Shown here piece after piece: positions 4,915 to 20,401 of a stretch of DNA of 64,000 nucleotides. The DNA is from Fenollaria massiliensis. GTDB taxonomy: Bacteria; Bacillota; Clostridia; Tissierellales; Peptoniphilaceae. The notes under the pieces are model-generated. The model saw only the letters and a program-made list of their open reading frames with translations. It was not told the origin of the DNA and did no database searches. The stretch's first letter is position 1; each line of letters opens with the position of its first letter. Position numbers and translations under genes: made by a program. The DNA lies in assembly GCF_000312505.2 (NCBI RefSeq), contig NZ_HG326224.1, forward strand, positions 248,001 through 312,000, written 5' to 3'.

Positions 4915-4943
4915 ATTATATCATATAATAAGACTATTTACAA
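4915..4943 (-). promoter_or_regulatory. Sigma-A promoter of the rimP-nusA-infB operon
   Basis: Minus-strand TTGTAA (4938-4943), a 17-base spacer, and TATAAT (4915-4920) preceded by an extended TGA. The -35 region overlaps a weak 6-bp hairpin (4932-4946) that may help end rho transcription. Confidence 0.75.
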
Positions 4944-4956
4944 GTCTTTTATAAAA

Positions 4957-6371
4957 TTAATCATTCTTAATTAAAGCTTTGTCTAAACTATTAACAAGTT
5001 CCTTATTAGATGATGTATTCGTCATGAATTTACGTAAATATTCAACCGCGTATTCATTTCCGTTCTTATTCATCAAGGCTCTAAACTTTCTTTGAATCTT
5101 TAAAGTTTTTTCATCTAATAATAATTCATCCTTCCTTGTGCCTGAATTTAATATGTCAATGGCTGGAAAGAGCCTCATGTTTGATAGGTCTCTATCAAGA
5201 TAGAGCTCCATGTTGCCAGTACCTTTAAATTCTTCGTAAATAACTTGATCCATCCTCGAGCCAGTATCAATCAAAGCAGTTGCTAGTATGCTTAGACTGC
5301 CTTTATCCTTGAAGTTTCTTGCCGCTCCAAAAAATTTCTTCGGTCCAAATAAAGCGCCTGGATCCAAACCTCCCGATAGCGATCTACCTGTTGGCGTTAT
5401 CATCATGTTATATGCTCTGGCAAGTCTTGTGATGCTATCAAGAAGTATAACTACATCCTTTTTATGCTCGACAAGTCTCTTTGCTCTCTCAAGCGTCATT
5501 TGTGATACCTTTATATGATTTTCAAGATCTTCGTCAAAAGTCGAGTAAATCACATCGCCATTGATGCTTCTCTTAAGATCGGTAACTTCTTCTGGTCTTT
5601 CATCAATTAAAAGAACTATAAGTTTTATCTCTGGATGATTTATGTTAATGGCATTGGCAATCTTTTTGATTAAAGTAGTCTTACCAGCCTTTGGCGGCGC
5701 AACGATAAGTCCTCTTTGTCCCTTGCCTATAGGTGAGATTAAATCAATAAACCTTGTAGATAGTTCATCTTTAGTCGTTTCAAGCTTAATAAGCTCATCT
5801 GGATACTCTGGAACCAAATCATCAAAGTCCGCTCTCTTAAAGCAAGTATCAAGACTATCTCCATTGACCTTATTGATATAAACTACGGCATTCTTAGAAT
5901 TTTCTTCATTTGATTCGTCTTTTTTTCTGACCTTGCCAGTGATTTCGTCGCCTTGTCTTAATAAAAACTTTTTTATATAAGTTGGCGAAACATAATAATC
6001 ATTGTCGCTTTGTGAATAATTTTCTCTTCTTAAAAATCCAAAACCATCTGGAAGTATCTCTAAGATGCCTGTTACTTCAACCGTTTCAATACCATCTATA
6101 GAGTTATCTTTAGTTGTTTTTGAATCAGTTTTTTCTTCTTTTGATTTATTTTTTTCAATGTTTGCGCTATTATTATTAATTTTTCAAAAAATTCATCCAA
6201 ATTCTTACATGACTTAAAAGCATCCTCATCATGATTTGTGCGGATGCTCTTAAGAATATATTCAATAAGCTCAAGTTTTTTTAACTTAGTAAAGTTTTTT
6301 AGCCCATAGTTTTTAGCAAAATTTTGTAGCTCTACTAATTTATAATCATCTAAGTGATTATCTACAATCAT
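4957..6371 (-). CDS. rho: Transcription termination factor Rho, split by an apparent frameshift
   Basis: Two frames together make one Rho. The N-terminal part (6371 to about 6187) is a Rho_N-like helical domain. The rest, open from 6183 to 4957, carries an acidic/basic linker, the cold-shock RNA-binding domain ([16 protein letters not shown]), and the ATPase domain with Walker [10 protein letters not shown], Walker B-like [10 protein letters not shown] and the R-loop region. Reading one frame then the other needs a -1 shift near GAAAAATTA (about 6180-6187); one extra A in the A5 run would restore a single frame. The ATG at 6371 overlaps the glpX stop (ATGA), supporting that start. Rho is a hexameric RNA helicase that ends transcription; a second hypothetical start at TTG 5817 would lack the RNA-binding domain. 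Sequencing error, real mutation and recoding are all possible; I favour error. Confidence 0.85.
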
Positions 6372-12178: not shown

Positions 12179-12202
12179 CCCCCGGCCTAGCCGGGGGTTT
12201 TT
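12179..12202. repeat. Right-end palindrome of the IS200-like element
   Basis: Stem CCCCCGGC (12179-12186), loop CTA, stem GCCGGGGG (12190-12197), then TTTTT. Same layout as the left-end hairpin. Confidence 0.75.
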
Positions 12203-12915: not shown

Positions 12916-13122
12916 TTATCTTGGTCTAGTTAATATTAAAATTATAATCAAAACTATAAAGATTGGTCCGAATACTTTGGCTGCCGCTAAAAACATAGCA
13001 GCAAAATCACCTTTTTCAGTTTTTTCTTGCTCTGTATGAATTAAATTACCTTTTTCATCATACTTGCCAGATTTTTTCTTTAGTTCTTCGAACGAACGAT
13101 CAATTTTCTTTTGAAAAAACAT
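12916..13122 (-). CDS. Small single-helix membrane protein at the end of the opp operon
   Basis: 68 residues: a charged, soluble-looking N-terminal half (about 1-38) and one hydrophobic segment near 44-65 ending in T-R-P-R. The ATG shares one base with the oppF stop (TAATG), so translation is coupled. Family not recognised. The charged N-terminus and the position suggest an accessory subunit for the peptide transporter, which is inference. The terminator at 12887-12910 follows it. Confidence 0.65.
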   Translation of the reverse strand: MFFQKKIDRSFEELKKKSGKYDEKGNLIHTEQEKTEKGDFAAMFLAAAKVFGPIFIVLIIILILTRPR

Positions 13123-14540
13123 TATTTATCCAAATTTAGCTTATGATGACATGCAACAAAGTGTCCAGGTCTTACTTCTTCAAATACTGGAACAACAGTT
13201 TTACACTCTTCAGTAGCATATTTACATCTAGTATGGAACTTACAGCCCTTAGGTGGATTGATAGGACTTGGTATATCTCCTTCTAGAATTTGAATTTCTT
13301 TCTTAGAATCAGTAGTTGGTATTGCGCCTAAAAGTGCTTCTGTATATGGATGCACTGGTCTAGCGTATAACTCCTTAGAATCAGCAAATTCAACTATATT
13401 TCCTAAGTACATTACACCTACCTTATCAGAAATGTATTTAATAACTGACAAGTCATGTGATATGAATAGATATGTTAGGTTTTCTTTTTCTTTTAAATCA
13501 ATCAACAAGTTAATAATTTGTGATTGAATAGATACGTCTAGAGCTGATACTGCTTCGTCGCAAACGATGAAGTCTGGCTTTAAAGCAACACTTCTAGCGA
13601 TACCAATTCTTTGTCTTTGACCGCCAGAGAATTGGTGAGGATATCTGTGAATAAAGTAATGAGCTAGACCGCAGTCTTGCATAACCTTTACAACGTAATC
13701 TTGTAGAGCCTTATCTTTTTGTTTGTAGATATCGTGAGCTACTAAACCTTCAGATATAATTTGACCTACAGTCATACGAGGGTTAAGTGATGAATATGGG
13801 TCTTGGAAGATAAGTTGCATATCTTTTCTTAAGTGTCTCATCTCTTCATATTCAAGTTCAGCTAGGTTTACACCAGCATCTCTATATCCCTCAGCTTTTT
13901 CGTATTCAGCATGTCCCTTAACTTCTTCTCTAAGAGAATCAAGTTTTGCTTCAACATTTTTTAATTCGCTCTCAGATGCTGAATCTTCTTTTCCATCTTT
14001 CTTAGCAAGAAATATTTTGTTATTTAATTCTTGTTCCTTTGAAAGTAATGATTTAACTTCACTTTCATTGTCATGATATATTAAAGCTCCAGCTATTTGT
14101 GCAAGGTCTTTGTAAAGAAGTTTATATTGCTTTTCAGCCTCTCTAAGCTTATTTAAAGCTTCGCCCTTTTCCTTGCCTTCAGCAAGTGCTTCATAAGCAG
14201 AAGTATCCTTTTCAATCTCAGCTTTAAGCTCTTTTAATTTATTCTTATGGCTAGCGAAACCATTTATTAATTTATATACATACTTAGGGTTAACTTCCCA
14301 TCTTGTTCTTCCGTAATAAATAGTTCTACCGTCAGTTTGTTTGTATAATTGTAGTAATGTTCTTCCGAAAGTAGATTTACCGCAGCCAGATTCACCAACT
14401 AAGCCGATAGTTTCTCCCTTGTAAATATCCAATGAGATATCATCATTAGCCTTTACATATTTAACTTCCTTGCCTACTTTTTGTACAGGGAAGTATTGTT
14501 TTAAGTTTTGTATTCTAAATAGTAATTCTCTATTTTCCAT
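13122..14540 (-). CDS. oppF: Oligopeptide ABC transporter ATPase OppF-like, with a long helical insert
   Basis: 472 residues, against about 310-330 for typical OppF. Walker A GESGCGKST lies at 49-57 and the Q-loop IFQDP at 244-248; the normal gap is about 40 residues, so about 150 extra residues (about 79-232) are inserted. The insert is Lys/Glu/Leu-rich and looks like two or three long helices, probably coiled coil. The signature SGGQRQR, Walker B, D-loop and H-loop follow, and the C-terminal oligopeptide-transporter motif with C-x-F-H-x-R-C-x-Y-A-T-E-E-C is present. The ATPase powers peptide uptake with OppD. The gene ends 1 base into the small membrane gene and overlaps oppD by 11 bases. 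Confidence 0.92.
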   Translation of the reverse strand: MENRELLFRIQNLKQYFPVQKVGKEVKYVKANDDISLDIYKGETIGLVGESGCGKSTFGRTLLQLYKQTDGRTIYYGRTRWEVNPKYVYKLINGFASHKNKLKELKAEIEKDTSAYEALAEGKEKGEALNKLREAEKQYKLLYKDLAQIAGALIYHDNESEVKSLLSKEQELNNKIFLAKKDGKEDSASESELKNVEAKLDSLREEVKGHAEYEKAEGYRDAGVNLAELEYEEMRHLRKDMQLIFQDPYSSLNPRMTVGQIISEGLVAHDIYKQKDKALQDYVVKVMQDCGLAHYFIHRYPHQFSGGQRQRIGIARSVALKPDFIVCDEAVSALDVSIQSQIINLLIDLKEKENLTYLFISHDLSVIKYISDKVGVMYLGNIVEFADSKELYARPVHPYTEALLGAIPTTDSKKEIQILEGDIPSPINPPKGCKFHTRCKYATEECKTVVPVFEEVRPGHFVACHHKLNLDK

Positions 14541-15525
14541 CGGATCTTACCCCCTTTTCAGGATAGAAACATCTTACTTCATGATTGTCATCTACTTTAA
14601 CTAAATCTGGTTGATAGTTATCACACTTTTCAGTTCTATATTTACATCTAGGAGCAAATTTACAGCCCTTAGGTAAATTTAGTGGATGTGGAACAGCTCC
14701 AGGTATTGCATCTAGCTTCATGCCTTGAGGAGTATCCAATCTTGGTATAGATACCATAAGTCCTTCTGTATATGGATGCATGAATTTACTCTTACCTTCG
14801 AAGATAATATCTCTTGGTGCTTTTTCAACTACTTGACCACAATACATAACAGCAACGTCATCTGCCATTTGGTTAATAACGCCAAGGTCATGAGTGATAA
14901 ATAATATTGAAGTACCGATTCTCTTCTTAAGATCATTCATTAATCTAAGTATTTGAGCTTGAATAGTAACGTCAAGAGCAGTTGTTGGCTCGTCAGCTAT
15001 AAGAAGCTTAGGAACACAAGCAAGTGCCATGGCAATCATAACTCTTTGTCTCATACCACCTGATAATTGGTGAGGATATTGTTTAGCAACAGTCTCTGGA
15101 TTTGGTATCTTAACCATGCTAAGCATTTCAACAACTTTTTCAGCTGCTTCTTTCTTGTTCATTCCTTGGTGAATAATGAACGGTTCACTAACTTGTCTTT
15201 CAACAGTAAATACTGGGTTTAGTGAAGTCATTGGCTCTTGGAATATAACAGAAACATCATTACCTCTGATATGACCCATTTTGTTCTTAGGTATATCAGT
15301 AATATTTTCTCCGTTAAACCAAATTTCACCACTGTCAATATATCCATTACCATCAAGTAGTTTAATGATACTCATGGCAGAAACACTCTTACCACTACCA
15401 CTTTCTCCTACTACTCCTAATGTTTTACCTTGTTCTACTGAATAGGAAACGCCATTAACAGCTTTGATTATTCCCTTTTTTGTTGTAAAAAAGGTATGCA
15501 AGTCTTTTAATTCTAATAATGCCAT
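14530..15525 (-). CDS. oppD: Oligopeptide ABC transporter ATPase OppD-like
   Basis: 331 residues, normal length. Walker [10 protein letters not shown]-loop [10 protein letters not shown], signature LSGGMRQR and Walker B LLIADEP are present, as is the C-terminal Cys motif ([16 protein letters not shown]) typical of Opp/Dpp ATPases, which may bind an Fe-S cluster in related proteins. It pairs with OppF in peptide import. It overlaps oppF by 11 bases and follows oppC by 12. No insert here, unlike OppF. Confidence 0.95.
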
Positions 15526-15537
15526 TAATCTTACCTC

Positions 15538-17373
15538 CTATCTTTCAGCTGATCTAGGGTCGATAGCATCTCTTAGGCCATCACCTATTAAGTTAATACA
15601 AATTACACAAACACCTAGTATGATAGAAGGGAATACCCATCTCCACCAGTATCTTTGAATAATTATAGAGTTGTTAGCACCGTTAAGCATATTACCCCAA
15701 GTTGGATATGGTGCTGGAACACCAAAGCCAAGGAATGATAGTGATGCTTCAGTAAGCATACTTGATGCGAATGATAGTGTAGCATTAACTATAATTATAG
15801 ATATAGTGTTTGGTAATATATGTTTAAATATAATATTCTTTTCTTTAATACCTAGTGATCTTGCAGCAACAACATACTCTTGCTCTCTAATTGAAAGTAC
15901 TTGAGCACGAACAAGTCTTTGAAGTCCAGTCCAAGATAGTAAACCAAGTATAATCATGATCATAAAGATCTTTTGGTCTGCAGTCATTGTTTGGCCAACA
16001 AGTGCTGATAATATCATCGCAAATGGTAGGAATGGTAGTGAACCTATCATTTCAGCAACCCTTTGTAATACGTTATCAACCCAGCCTCCAACGAAGCCTG
16101 AAATACCACCAACGATTACGCCGATGATAGTCGAGATTATAACTGCGATAGCACCTATAGTCATAGATTTTCTACCGCCGTTAAGAATTCTGTTCCAGAT
16201 ATCTCTGCCTAGGTCATCAGTACCTAATAAGTAACCTTTGTGACCATAGCTATATACCTTTCCAGATTGATCAACAACATGTGTTTGATAGAAACCAGTA
16301 TAAACTTTATCTACCTTTTTACCTCTAAGTTCTTGAGGCACATTAAGTTGTCCTAATGAGTTAGAACCCCATTCAATGATAGTATCATCTTTTAACTTAG
16401 CAAGATATGAATATCTTTGTCCATATATATTCTTAACCTTACCTTGTATATCTTCAGGAACGTCCCACTCACCAGTTGTAGTTGGGTTACCCCACATATA
16501 AATCTTGCCTGATTCTCCTACAGCTACAAATGTATTGTATGAAGAAGCAAGGTCAACAACTTTTTCATTAATTTCAGGTATCTTAGATAAACCTGACTCT
16601 TGTGCACCTAAGTGAACAACTTTGCCGTCTTTTGTTATAGCGCATGCTGTATTAGGGTTTGGAACTATCTTAGCAATATTTCCTTTATATTCATGACCTT
16701 CTTTGTAGTCATTAACGCCCATGTTACCCCAAGCGTATGTGTCTCCATCTTCATCTAAAGCATAAGAAACTTGGTCTGAAGCAGCGATATCAACAATTTT
16801 TGTTCCAAGCAATTCTGCTGGTGCCTTAGCTTGTTGTAGTCTGTTATTACCCCAGCCAAGAACTTTACCATCATCAGTAAGAGCTATTACATGGTCAGTA
16901 CCACAAGCTACTTTAATGATGTTTTTTCCAGCCTTCTTTACTTCTTTAGGTATTTTTCTAATATCAACCTTTTTGGAGATATTAGTTTTGCCCCAAACAA
17001 AAATCTTACCATTCTCATCAACAGCAGCACTAAATGTAGATCCAACACTAAGTGTCTTGATATTCTTAAGTCCATTTGGCAACGGAAGTATATCGAAACC
17101 TGGAGCTATGTTAGCTTGTGTTGTTTCAACATATGATAAGTCTAAAGGATTAAATAAAGGTCCTATCAATACTAATAAGAATATACCAAAGAAAATGAAA
17201 AATGCAGTCATTGCTACCTTATTTGAAAGGAATACGTTTAATATGGTTCTAAAAGGAGTTTGAATGTCATCCTCAACCATAACGTCTTTTTTCTTTTTCT
17301 TGAATAAACTAAATCCTTTTTTCTTTGGAGGTATTTGGTTTGTTTCTTTTAAGTCTTTTTTATCTTTTTCCAT
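15538..17373 (-). CDS. oppC: Peptide ABC transporter permease OppC with an inserted RCC1-like propeller
   Basis: 611 residues, about twice a normal OppC (~300). The N-terminus is basic and cytoplasmic (1-50), the first membrane helix is at about 54-72, and the ABC permease core begins at about 384 with GTDDLGRDIWNR, then five further helices including the EAA-like loop AARSLGIKEKNIIFKHILPN. Between them, about 102-380, are seven units each built as ...G-K-I/V-Y-x-W-G..., the RCC1 blade pattern (blade tips near 128, 175, 216, 256, 295, 336 and 378). So the outer loop after the first helix has become a complete propeller. The frame is continuous across both junctions. Its binding partner is unknown; peptide binding, cell-surface docking or OppA contact are guesses. 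Confidence 0.93.
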   Translation of the reverse strand: MEKDKKDLKETNQIPPKKKGFSLFKKKKKDVMVEDDIQTPFRTILNVFLSNKVAMTAFFIFFGIFLLVLIGPLFNPLDLSYVETTQANIAPGFDILPLPNGLKNIKTLSVGSTFSAAVDENGKIFVWGKTNISKKVDIRKIPKEVKKAGKNIIKVACGTDHVIALTDDGKVLGWGNNRLQQAKAPAELLGTKIVDIAASDQVSYALDEDGDTYAWGNMGVNDYKEGHEYKGNIAKIVPNPNTACAITKDGKVVHLGAQESGLSKIPEINEKVVDLASSYNTFVAVGESGKIYMWGNPTTTGEWDVPEDIQGKVKNIYGQRYSYLAKLKDDTIIEWGSNSLGQLNVPQELRGKKVDKVYTGFYQTHVVDQSGKVYSYGHKGYLLGTDDLGRDIWNRILNGGRKSMTIGAIAVIISTIIGVIVGGISGFVGGWVDNVLQRVAEMIGSLPFLPFAMILSALVGQTMTADQKIFMIMIILGLLSWTGLQRLVRAQVLSIREQEYVVAARSLGIKEKNIIFKHILPNTISIIIVNATLSFASSMLTEASLSFLGFGVPAPYPTWGNMLNGANNSIIIQRYWWRWVFPSIILGVCVICINLIGDGLRDAIDPRSAER

Positions 17374-17382
17374 TGTAACCTC

Positions 17383-18369
17383 CTAATTTTCTACTCTAAC
17401 TCTAGGGTCAACTAAGCCGTATGTCAAGTCAGTAACTAAGTTTCCGATAAGAGTTATTATTATATAGAATAACTGAATTGCAAGTGCTAAGTCATAGTCC
17501 TTTTTGTTTAAAGCATCTATGTAGAACTTACCCATACCATTTAAATTAAACATTGACTCAATAATTAGTGATCCAGAGAATATACTCATAAACCAGCCAA
17601 CAATTAGTGTAACTACTGGTAAAAGTGCATTTCTCCATGCGTGTGAATAAATTACAGCTTTTTCCTTTAAGCCCTTTGCTCTTGCAGTCTTAATATAATC
17701 CATGCTTAATGCGTCATCCATAGCAGCTCTGACATATCTTGTCATACCGCCAAGTGAGCCAACTGTCATGATTATTAGAGGAAGTGCAATGTGCTTAAAG
17801 ATATCAAGTGTATCCTTAATACCTGTATAATTCTTACCTGCAGTTCTCATACCACTTACTGGGAACCATTGTAACTTAACACTAAAGACATATATAAACA
17901 ATAGTGCTGTGATAAATACTGGTATAGAATAACCTATAACAGTTAATACCTGTGTTACTTGGTCGAAAACTGAGTTCTTTTTAACGGCACACGCTATACC
18001 TAAAGGTATAGTAATGCCTAGACCTATAATTATTGCAAAAATATTAATAAATATAGTAAGTTTTAAAGGTTCTTGTACAACGTTTACAACCTTGTCTTTA
18101 TATACTCTTGAGTCTCCTAGGTCACCTTGTAGTAGTCTACCAAGCCATTTACCGTATCTAACTATCATAGGATCATCAAGACCATATTGTTTTCTTAAGT
18201 CTTTGTATCTCTTATTGTACTCTTCAACTTTTAATTGTGCCTTCATTGGTTCAAGCTCTGCTCTAGCCGGGTCAGAAGGTATCATATTATATAAGAAGAA
18301 AAGTAAAATAGACATAACAAAGAATACGAATACCATGTAAAGTATTCTTTTTATAACATATTTTCCCAT
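17383..18369 (-). CDS. oppB: Oligopeptide ABC transporter permease OppB-like
   Basis: About 328 residues with six hydrophobic segments, the N-terminal YVIKRILYMVFVFF helix and the conserved permease loop Y-I-K-T-A-R-A-K-G-L-K-E-K-A-V. The frame extends upstream to 18426, but AAGGTGG lies just before three ATGs; 18369 has 6 bases spacing and is chosen. Normal length for OppB, without inserts. It forms the channel with OppC. It is 9 bases before oppC and 82 after oppA, with a hairpin between. Confidence 0.93.
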   Translation of the reverse strand: MGKYVIKRILYMVFVFFVMSILLFFLYNMIPSDPARAELEPMKAQLKVEEYNKRYKDLRKQYGLDDPMIVRYGKWLGRLLQGDLGDSRVYKDKVVNVVQEPLKLTIFINIFAIIIGLGITIPLGIACAVKKNSVFDQVTQVLTVIGYSIPVFITALLFIYVFSVKLQWFPVSGMRTAGKNYTGIKDTLDIFKHIALPLIIMTVGSLGGMTRYVRAAMDDALSMDYIKTARAKGLKEKAVIYSHAWRNALLPVVTLIVGWFMSIFSGSLIIESMFNLNGMGKFYIDALNKKDYDLALAIQLFYIIITLIGNLVTDLTYGLVDPRVRVEN

Positions 18370-18397
18370 CATCATCCACCTTATCTGTATTTTTATA

Positions 18398-18421
18398 GAA
18401 GGCAATATTTCTATTGCCTTC
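18398..18421 (-). promoter_or_regulatory. Intercistronic hairpin between oppA and oppB
   Basis: GAAGGCAATA / TATTGCCTTC with loop TTTC, 10-bp stem, no U tract. A hairpin here without a terminator tail could stabilise or partly stop the oppA message, giving more binding protein than permease. Stem seen; role inferred. Confidence 0.6.
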
Positions 18422-18451
18422 CACAAAATGTTTTTTTAATTCTAATGTTTA

Positions 18452-20401
18452 CTATTCTGTTACCCAAGCATCTAGTATAGTTGCTGTTAATCCCTTCATT
18501 TCTGAAGTTACCCAATGTTTAAGTTTAGCATTGTAGAAGTCATGGTATTGGTTAGAATATAGAGGTAGGTCAGGAAGTAATTCGTTCCATCTAACTATGA
18601 ACTTAACGAAGTTGTCCTTGAATGCGTCTCTTTGATCTGGAGCAACCATAACCATGTCTGTAGCAGTTTTTTCTAGCTCTTTATCGAAGATGAAGTTAGT
18701 GTTGTAACCCATCTTAATCATTTCTTCTTTTGTTGAGTAATCATATTTTCTATCATACCATGGAGTAAAGCCTGAAGCTAGGTTGAACATGTTATATGTT
18801 GGAACTCCATATTTAGCATCTTGTGATGCGTCTCTGTATAACCAGTTTAGTAATTCGTCAAAGCTCATTGCGTCTCTTTGAATCTTGATACCTGCTTTTA
18901 CAAGGTCAGGGTTTTCAGCTAGTTTAACAACTAGTAGGTCAGATACTTCGTTGTTTTCAGTAGATGCCCATTTGATTTCAAGTGGCATTAACTTACCGTC
19001 ATCCATCTTCTTGTATCTGATTCCGTCGCCTTCTTTAAATTCAGCGCCTGATTCGTTTAGAGTGAATCCAGCTTTTTCTAGTAATTCTACAGCCTTAGCT
19101 GGGTCGTATGGATAAGAGTTAAGCTTTTCTTCAAGTTCTTTCTTTGTTTCTTGATAGAACCATTGAGCAGTACCATAAGGTCCGTTTACAACAGAACCAT
19201 ATCCGCCTGTAAATTGTTTAGCGAAATCGTTTCTGTCTAGTAAGTAAGCAAGTGCTTGTCTTACTTCTGGGAATTGAGTTGGTCCAACGTCGCAAGAGAA
19301 TGCGATCTCACCATAACCAGCTCTTGGATAGTCAGTGTAAGCAAAGCCTTCGCCTTCTGTTAAGTCCATACCAGCGTTGATTGTCTTACCATCACCGATT
19401 TTATTGATTATATCAACACCACCAGTTTTTAAGTCGTCGATTTGAGTAGCTTGAGTTATCTTTTTAAGAATAACTTTTGAAATTAGAGGTTTTCTACCAA
19501 CTCTATCTCCTTGGAAGTTAGGGTTGATAACCATTGTTGCTAATTGTTGTGCTTCGTCGTATTTTTCTAACATATATGGACCGCTTGAAGGTAGAGTCTT
19601 TTTATCTCTTGCAGCTTTAACTGCGTTTTTGAACTCTTCAGTATTAATATCTTCAACAAAGTAACATCCATCGCCGTCATCTTTAATGTCTACATCTTTG
19701 CCTAACCAAAATTCTAGATCTTCTGGGCTTGATGCAACAGAGTTTAATTCATAGAAATATGGTGTGTTATTAGGATTAATTGTTGCTGAGAAAGTGTAAT
19801 CATCAATTAGATGAAGACCAGCAAATTCTTTAGTTTCTCCCTTACTAAATGCATCGTAACCAACTAGGTCGATACCTGCTGTGTTTTTACCTTTACATAA
19901 GTCTGGTCCAATAAGTTTTGAACTCCATAGCATAGTTGCTGCTACATAGTTCTTTGCTGTGATTTCTTTACCGTCAGCAAATTTAAGACCTTGTTTGATT
20001 GTGAATGTGTAAGTTTTTGACTTATCTTCGTTTTCTTTAGTGTCATACTTTTCAACGATTGAGTCGTCAATTACGTATTCACCTTCATCAGTTTGATCAA
20101 CTGTACCGTAGCCTTGAACTAAACGTCTAACGTCAGCATCTGATGCGTTGTTTTGCCATACTCCTGAGAAGTCTCCACTCATTTCAGTAGTAGTACCAAT
20201 GATTAATTGGCCACTTGGCTCAGTTGGTCTTTCAGCTGTTTCGTCATCTGCTGGTTCTTCAGCATTTTCGTCATCAGCTGGTGCTTCTGTTTCAGTATCA
20301 TTTTCTGCTGGTTCATCAGTCTTCTTACCGCATGCGAATGCGAAAGCTGATAATACCATAGAAAGTACTAATAAAAACACTAATGTCTTTTTAAGTTTCA
20401 T
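18452..20401 (-). CDS. oppA: Oligopeptide ABC transporter substrate-binding lipoprotein OppA-like
   Basis: 649 residues. Lipoprotein signal peptide ending A-F-A-C (Cys24), an acidic linker rich in Asp/Glu/Pro/Ala at about 27-62, then a large SBP_bac_5 domain (TEMSGDFSGVWQNNASDADV, YTFTIKQGLKFADGKEIT, LPSSGPYMLEKYD, VRQALAYLLDRNDFAKQF). Larger than many OppA (~550). It binds peptides at the outer face and hands them to OppBC. AAGGGGG lies 7 bases before the ATG. First gene of the operon. Confidence 0.95.
   Translation of the reverse strand: MKLKKTLVFLLVLSMVLSAFAFACGKKTDEPAENDTETEAPADDENAEEPADDETAERPTEPSGQLIIGTTTEMSGDFSGVWQNNASDADVRRLVQGYGTVDQTDEGEYVIDDSIVEKYDTKENEDKSKTYTFTIKQGLKFADGKEITAKNYVAATMLWSSKLIGPDLCKGKNTAGIDLVGYDAFSKGETKEFAGLHLIDDYTFSATINPNNTPYFYELNSVASSPEDLEFWLGKDVDIKDDGDGCYFVEDINTEEFKNAVKAARDKKTLPSSGPYMLEKYDEAQQLATMVINPNFQGDRVGRKPLISKVILKKITQATQIDDLKTGGVDIINKIGDGKTINAGMDLTEGEGFAYTDYPRAGYGEIAFSCDVGPTQFPEVRQALAYLLDRNDFAKQFTGGYGSVVNGPYGTAQWFYQETKKELEEKLNSYPYDPAKAVELLEKAGFTLNESGAEFKEGDGIRYKKMDDGKLMPLEIKWASTENNEVSDLLVVKLAENPDLVKAGIKIQRDAMSFDELLNWLYRDASQDAKYGVPTYNMFNLASGFTPWYDRKYDYSTKEEMIKMGYNTNFIFDKELEKTATDMVMVAPDQRDAFKDNFVKFIVRWNELLPDLPLYSNQYHDFYNAKLKHWVTSEMKGLTATILDAWVTE

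Follow-up and report, generated by a model that had tools for sequence, protein, structure and literature searches.

A predicted RCC1/BLIP-II-type propeller within the OppC permease of a peptide importer subfamily from anaerobic Bacillota

The OppC permease encoded by an opp operon of Fenollaria massiliensis contains a large insert after its first membrane helix, and domain models together with structure prediction support a seven-bladed propeller of the RCC1/BLIP-II type, with three strands per blade, over residues ~92-383. Propeller-bearing OppC proteins are a widespread subfamily in anaerobic Bacillota. The arrangement is apparently undescribed, both of its parts coming from known families. 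Domain databases presumably list both Pfam domains in one protein already. Searches of open-access full texts, a body of literature that leaves most subscription journals and all preprints outside, returned no description of an RCC1 propeller in a peptide permease, in agreement with the original prediction for this DNA, which had called the arrangement undescribed. Some of these searches gave other papers, which appear from their titles to be unrelated. The carrier genera combined with transport gave, in open-access texts, no RCC1 among the matches listed. A survey of repetitive propellers names the RCC1/BLIP-II group, and in the portion of that survey available neither "permease" nor "transporter" occurs (PMC9218822).

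The propeller-bearing OppC and its operon

The window, that is the whole stretch of 64,000 nucleotides analysed, encodes OppA, OppB, OppC, OppD and OppF on its minus strand (Table 1). By eye, the oppB product keeps a DppB-like TM1-TM2 region, and OppD and OppF keep cysteines corresponding to those that hold [4Fe-4S] clusters in DppD and DppF, as described in the available part of the report on that importer (PMC12136057). Between oppF and the next gene of at least 100 aa lies a perfect GC stem of eight pairs with T-rich tails (12179-12197), terminator-like on both strands. A terminator scan gave 8 sites versus 4.6 in shuffles, and a promoter scan gave fewer sites than shuffles.

Table 1. Features of the opp operon, in window positions
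Feature	Position	Strand	Description
oppF, ATPase	13122..14540	-	472 aa; ABC_tran, oligo_HPY; internal helical insert
Predicted helical insert of OppF	13923..14258	-	Residues ~95-206, four long helices; AlphaFold2 pLDDT 85-97 by ten-residue blocks
oppD, ATPase	14530..15525	-	ABC_tran, oligo_HPY
oppC with inserted propeller	15538..17373	-	611 aa; OppC_N, RCC1_2, RCC1 and BPD_transp_1 in one frame
BPD_transp_1 permease core of OppC with presumed EAA-type loop	15553..16122	-	Residues 418-607; Pfam
GTDDLGRD signature of OppC, after the insert	16201..16224	-	Residues 384-391
Insert with linkers	16225..17112	-	OppC residues 88-383; alignment of 10 relatives
Seven predicted three-stranded blades	16243..17061	-	OppC residues 105-377; AlphaFold2/DSSP strands; BLIP-II fold match
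Presumed TM helix 1 of OppC	17152..17220	-	Residues 52-74; helix in AlphaFold2/DSSP model
oppB	17383..18426	-	Listed with a TTG start, though the real one may be an ATG further on; BPD_transp_1, BPD_transp_1_N
oppA, substrate-binding protein	18452..20401	-	649 aa; SBP_bac_5 (6e-41); lipobox-like N-terminus by eye

By family membership this OppC is an oligopeptide-type permease, and oligopeptide transport is its predicted function. Pfam places OppC_N at residues 39-91 (30.2 bits, cut-off 23.9) and BPD_transp_1 at the C-terminal core (114.3 bits, cut-off 26.4), while the top NCBIfam model, Opp4C (NF045476), scores 308.6 bits, under its curated cut-off of 350. From the family we take residues 52-74 to be a membrane helix, and known family topology presumably places the TM1-TM2 loop on the outer side. 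The coupling loop of the permease core reads AARSLGIKEKNIIFKHILP, which we take to be the EAA-type loop; a strict pattern for this loop failed in 27 of 79 relatives, the family consensus of which is still AAxAMG. The genome of the window also encodes two ordinary OppC/DppC proteins without an insert and one more distant homologue.

The insert matches RCC1_2 (PF13540) in four stretches with 106.5 bits against a cut-off of 22, and RCC1 (PF00415) with 27.3 bits against 21.7; the whole-domain model WD40_RLD (PF25390) reaches 142.2 bits (E 3.4e-41), just below its cut-off of 150. The seven blade cores, each of 24 residues, share a mean mutual identity of 29% (range 17-50%), and their mean pairwise score of 29.3 is reached by none of 1000 shuffles of the insert (shuffle maximum 4.2). 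A chance resemblance among the repeats is ruled out by the Pfam scores and these shuffles. The seven RCC1-like blades of the original prediction are thus borne out, as are its coordinates, 16234-17070 on the minus strand corresponding to residues 102-380 of the 611-residue frame (15538-17373, minus strand). The string G-K-I/V-x-x-W/Y-G said to end each unit is exact in four of the seven (GKIFVWG, GKVLGWG, GKIYMWG, GKVYSYG), whereas blades 3, 4 and 6 deviate from it (GDTYAWG, GKVVHLG, DTIIEWG). Nucleotide direct repeats within the insert amount to one short pair, so that, with a blade identity of only 29%, the blades look old rather than newly amplified.

An AlphaFold2 model of OppC built from 80 aligned sequences has a mean pLDDT of 87.5. 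Across residues 91-380 the ten-residue blocks range from 88 to 97, a confident propeller, and DSSP assigns seven strand triplets between residues 105 and 377. The model can be laid over E. coli OppC (8z21; Z 30.6, rmsd 1.9, 277 of 278 residues, model residues 37-606) and over BLIP-II (3qi0_C; Z 29.9, rmsd 2.1, 257 residues, 25% identity, model residues 92-368), the top match among RCC1-type folds. UVR8 and other RCC1 domains are the next PDB matches, and Foldseek concurs. These fold matches, the model and the family models all support the proposed seven-bladed ring in the outer loop between TM1 and GTDDLGRD. The extent given then, residues 102-380, lies within the domain but is slightly short, since the BLIP-II alignments start at residue 92; residues 92-104 probably make up the rest of the last blade and thereby shut the ring.

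Each half of the protein thus has well-known relatives. E. coli OppBCDF (8z21) and M. tuberculosis OppABCD (8j5q) share the OppC_N and BPD_transp_1 families and the oppABCDF order, but their OppC subunits, judged by chain length, are without the ~290-residue insert between TM1 and GTD..GRD. BLIP-II (3qi0, 1jtd), a secreted Streptomyces inhibitor of class A beta-lactamases, likewise has seven blades, which according to the available text consist of three strands only (PMC6121496); it is a free protein, whereas the OppC propeller is built into a permease and is likened to it by fold alone. UVR8, HERC2, RPGR and RCC1 show the same propeller fold (Z about 22-27) and the same position of a motif in the turn between strands A and B, but are eukaryotic, with propeller chains longer than that of OppC. 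To our knowledge, UVR8 and the other RCC1-like domains are not part of a membrane permease.

Distribution, origin and selection

With the insert as query (E <= 1e-6), 14 of 61 genomes (the window's own and 60 relatives) gave a match. Ten of these, the own genome included, have propeller and permease in one frame, and the other four comprise three RCC1 proteins of different make-up and a frame of 455 aa (G044). Both other searched genomes of the genus carry the fusion, which is present in other genera and families as well. Within the order 70 of 249 genomes match at E <= 1e-10; by table count, which considers the propeller and frame length only, 63 of the 249 have a whole propeller in a frame of 605-670 aa, the remaining matches being six weaker partial hits and a fragment (G226). 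Matches are found in 11 of 291 genomes sampled from the class (E <= 1e-50, frames of 609-654 aa) and in 22 of 398 from the phylum (E <= 1e-25), 14 of which cover the whole insert; the order, class and phylum samples overlap.

The GTDB genome collection, scanned with two short peptide patterns, yielded 108 relatives, the best 80 of which were kept. All 80 of these best loci have propeller and permease in one frame (that of L095 lies at a contig start), so that RCC1 and OppC domains do occur in one protein across Bacillota, as the original prediction had asked; all 80 are Bacillota by title, and the titles include Fenollaria timonensis, Anaerococcus, Roseburia, Hungatella, Anaerosporobacter, Anaeromassilibacillus, Solobacterium, Erysipelothrix, Christensenella and Clostridium sp. 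Cult1. Frames of 560 aa or more number 79, and all but two of these (L091 and L092), hence 77, contain G[TSEA]D..GRD. OppB precedes OppC in 79 of the best 80 loci and OppD follows it in 79, with OppA found in 71 and OppF in 72; missing opp neighbours fall at contig ends, as far as the locus table shows. The recurrence of the fusion in the genus, in other genera and families and at all of these loci leads us to reject an assembly join at the edges of the insert, and an artefact of assembly or gene prediction is barely conceivable, given that independent genomes share both the frame and its junctions and that nothing was found in its favour.

Beyond these genomes, plasmids gave one distant match, to an Ig-like repeat protein, and a viral structure library gave many RCC1 proteins of giant viruses and phages, with no permease among the named ones in the top 50 matches. 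Three loci from related genomes (L012, L013, L015) encode other RCC1 proteins: by eye, one is anchored in the membrane, another is secreted and the third is fused to a subtilase-like domain.

The same outer loop of OppC holds other additions. In L148 (168-1922) and L150 (4561-6330) it carries a different insert of ~270 residues, with no RCC1 match and no Pfam match at cut-off, and in L158-L164 it carries inserts of ~50-90 residues, seemingly not all of one kind by eye and likewise without an RCC1 match. The TM1-TM2 loop of OppC can thus be regarded as a site of domain addition, and the propeller is among the largest inserts seen there. Many ordinary OppC proteins have a short loop ending like PPS..H..GTD..GRD, and the propeller falls between the two halves of this motif.

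The propeller was probably inserted once. Permease trees were built from only the part after the insert. A quick tree of 98 rows (65 with the propeller, a thinned set of 58 of 79 plus others, and 33 without) needs one change, with support 94. In a careful tree (64 propeller, 30 others), which excludes the long branches L151, L147 and L021 and the incomplete L052, the propeller OppCs stand on one side of one branch (100/99), and one change is needed in 100% of 200 bootstrap trees. Two independent insertions are accordingly not favoured, even with only 28-31% identity between Fenollaria-type and Anaerococcus-type inserts; the tree is unrooted, and the reverse change is formally open. L147 (about 4922-5956), an OppC without a propeller, adjoined the propeller group in the quick tree. 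None of the comparison OppCs, most of which were found by permease similarity and some of which neighbour propeller operons, belongs to the propeller group. No loss of the propeller was seen in the sampled clade, although, with propeller rows picked up through the insert itself, losses may have escaped notice.

Purifying selection acts on the insert. The three pairs formed by the window and the two other genomes of the genus give it dN/dS values of 0.10, 0.08 and 0.14; identity to the window within the genus is 91-92% for the insert and 100% for the permease part, which has zero amino-acid changes among the three. Synonymous divergence between the window and F. timonensis is uneven along the operon. 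Compared with L026, the window's oppC shows ~0.3-0.6 synonymous differences per site across the half that encodes the N-terminus and the propeller, and 0.1-0.2 across the permease half; recombination or codon constraint may account for this.

A predicted helical insert in OppF

OppF of the window also carries an insert, predicted with confidence to be a helical domain; without it, the protein superimposes on E. coli OppF (8z21_D) over 319 of 328 residues (Z 40.8, rmsd 1.9). In 23 aligned OppFs the extra stretch lies between the Walker A motif and the Q-loop. Among propeller operons, 60 of 72 OppFs are 450 aa or longer. None of the OppFs at 22 comparison loci is that long; two of these are cut (L020, L021), which leaves 0 of 20 uncut comparison OppFs. 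Among the 12 shorter OppFs of propeller operons, two are cut by a contig end (L042, L076) and ten are uncut, with 337-426 aa. On the permease tree, with 68 labelled rows, the long OppF needs four changes, one of which may stem from the cut L042. OppF of L147 has 402 aa, its extra residues lying near the N-terminus, a different place from the insert of propeller operons. We propose that the helical insert is a separate addition that is usually co-inherited with the propeller. A widespread subfamily of one apparent origin, usually with this second insert, goes beyond what the original prediction had claimed.

The two inserts could together form a sensor-transporter, in which the outer propeller and the inner OppF domain would report peptide supply to the cell or gate the ATPase. 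The association of long OppF with propeller operons, and the placing of a confident helical domain between the Walker A motif and the Q-loop, speak for such a function. We nevertheless consider it unlikely: the ten operons with uncut short OppF keep their propeller, so that the two inserts are not obligate partners, and both may simply descend from one ancestor.

OppA is also longer in propeller operons, with several extra segments and a median of 659 aa (71 loci) as compared to 586 in ten comparison operons, cut frames included; the latter are few and were chosen by permease similarity.

Possible roles of the propeller

Our preferred reading, to which we assign a probability of roughly 0.4, draws on the E. 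coli dipeptide importer DppABCDF. There, according to the part of the report available (PMC12136057), DppB has an outer TM1-TM2 scoop reaching into the cleft of DppA, and DppC is different from DppB in this region. The scoop, made of a pair of short helices plus a loop, belongs to the B subunit, whereas here a propeller occupies the corresponding outer region of the C subunit. By analogy, the propeller would be a module for docking OppA or sealing the mouth of the importer, its site being the pseudo-symmetric counterpart of the scoop region. Two short tethers would hold it outside the membrane, and, to judge from the order of the strands (B antiparallel to A, C parallel to A), they would leave it on the face formed by the A-B turns, which should therefore look toward the membrane. 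This face would pack against OppB/OppC and a lobe of docked OppA, and the packing would recruit and orient OppA and help to close the outer mouth while the peptide is handed over.

In a propeller alignment of about 28 effective sequences, the relative entropy of the A-B turns is 2.6-3.9 in blades 6, 7, 1, 2 and 3 and 1.5-1.6 in blades 4 and 5, while that of the B-C turns is 2.1-2.8. The A-B turns hold the best conserved turn residues family-wide, above all in blade 7, beside the tethers, where the motif [FYWH][FYWH]xN[YF] is found in 71 of 80 rows. This motif counts in favour of docking, as does the longer OppA, the length of which may differ for substrate reasons. In UVR8, the tryptophans of GWRHT, at the end of strand A and in the A-B turn, lie at the dimer surface, as stated in the accessible text (PMC9546227). 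Against docking, part of the contrast in the A-B turns is the usual Gly/His of RCC1 repeats, and conservation is low in the turns of blades 4 and 5. The window itself is among the nine of 80 rows without the blade-7 motif, reading FYQTH, and also departs from the family in having S322 and Y376 at positions that are mostly His and Trp in the others. Furthermore, OppB keeps its scoop-like region, which leaves no obvious need for a further hold on OppA. On balance the pattern suggests that in most of the family the propeller makes a conserved contact with the transporter side, OppA and the outer mouth being the simplest candidates. Among the roles put forward in the original prediction, namely holding OppA, capturing peptides or touching host or wall material, we therefore prefer the first, on indirect grounds.

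A possible, if doubtful, alternative is that the propeller acts as a receptor for ligands from outside, or captures them, for example long peptides, a secreted protein (perhaps a peptidase) or a wall or host glycoprotein. It would then deliver the substrate, or whatever supplies it, to the importer, in a manner comparable to the binding of a partner protein by BLIP-II. BLIP-II, the closest RCC1-type fold, is a tight protein binder, and aromatic A-B turns occur there too in the alignments; the lower identity of the insert than of the permease within the genus also fits a receptor. By strand order, however, the conserved turns would lie on the tethered rather than the exposed side. Clustering of the open reading frames across the 80 loci yielded no partner gene, but was dominated by frames overlapping the opp genes and carries no weight either way. 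Joining such a receptor to the OppF domain as an inner regulator would give many anaerobic Bacillota a novel type of importer with two matched modules, a ligand-gated transporter-receptor in which recognition of an outside partner is coupled to the ATPase or to signalling; we regard this combination as improbable. It is about equally improbable that the propeller is a tolerated structural spacer without a specific partner, in a loop that accepts many kinds of insert. The other inserts of L148, L150 and L158-L164 and the deviation of the window's own turns from the family consensus would fit a spacer, but the low dN/dS of the insert (0.08-0.14), the turns conserved family-wide and the lack of any loss in the sampled clade argue against it.

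The DppB scoop is a small outer addition as described in the sections available (PMC12136057), whereas here a whole seven-bladed propeller has become fixed in the permease. Should the propeller grip OppA, importers with seemingly lipid-anchored binding proteins would have a docking device as an integral part of the permease. Should it bind something else, peptide uptake would be tied to an outside partner in anaerobes including Roseburia and Anaerococcus.
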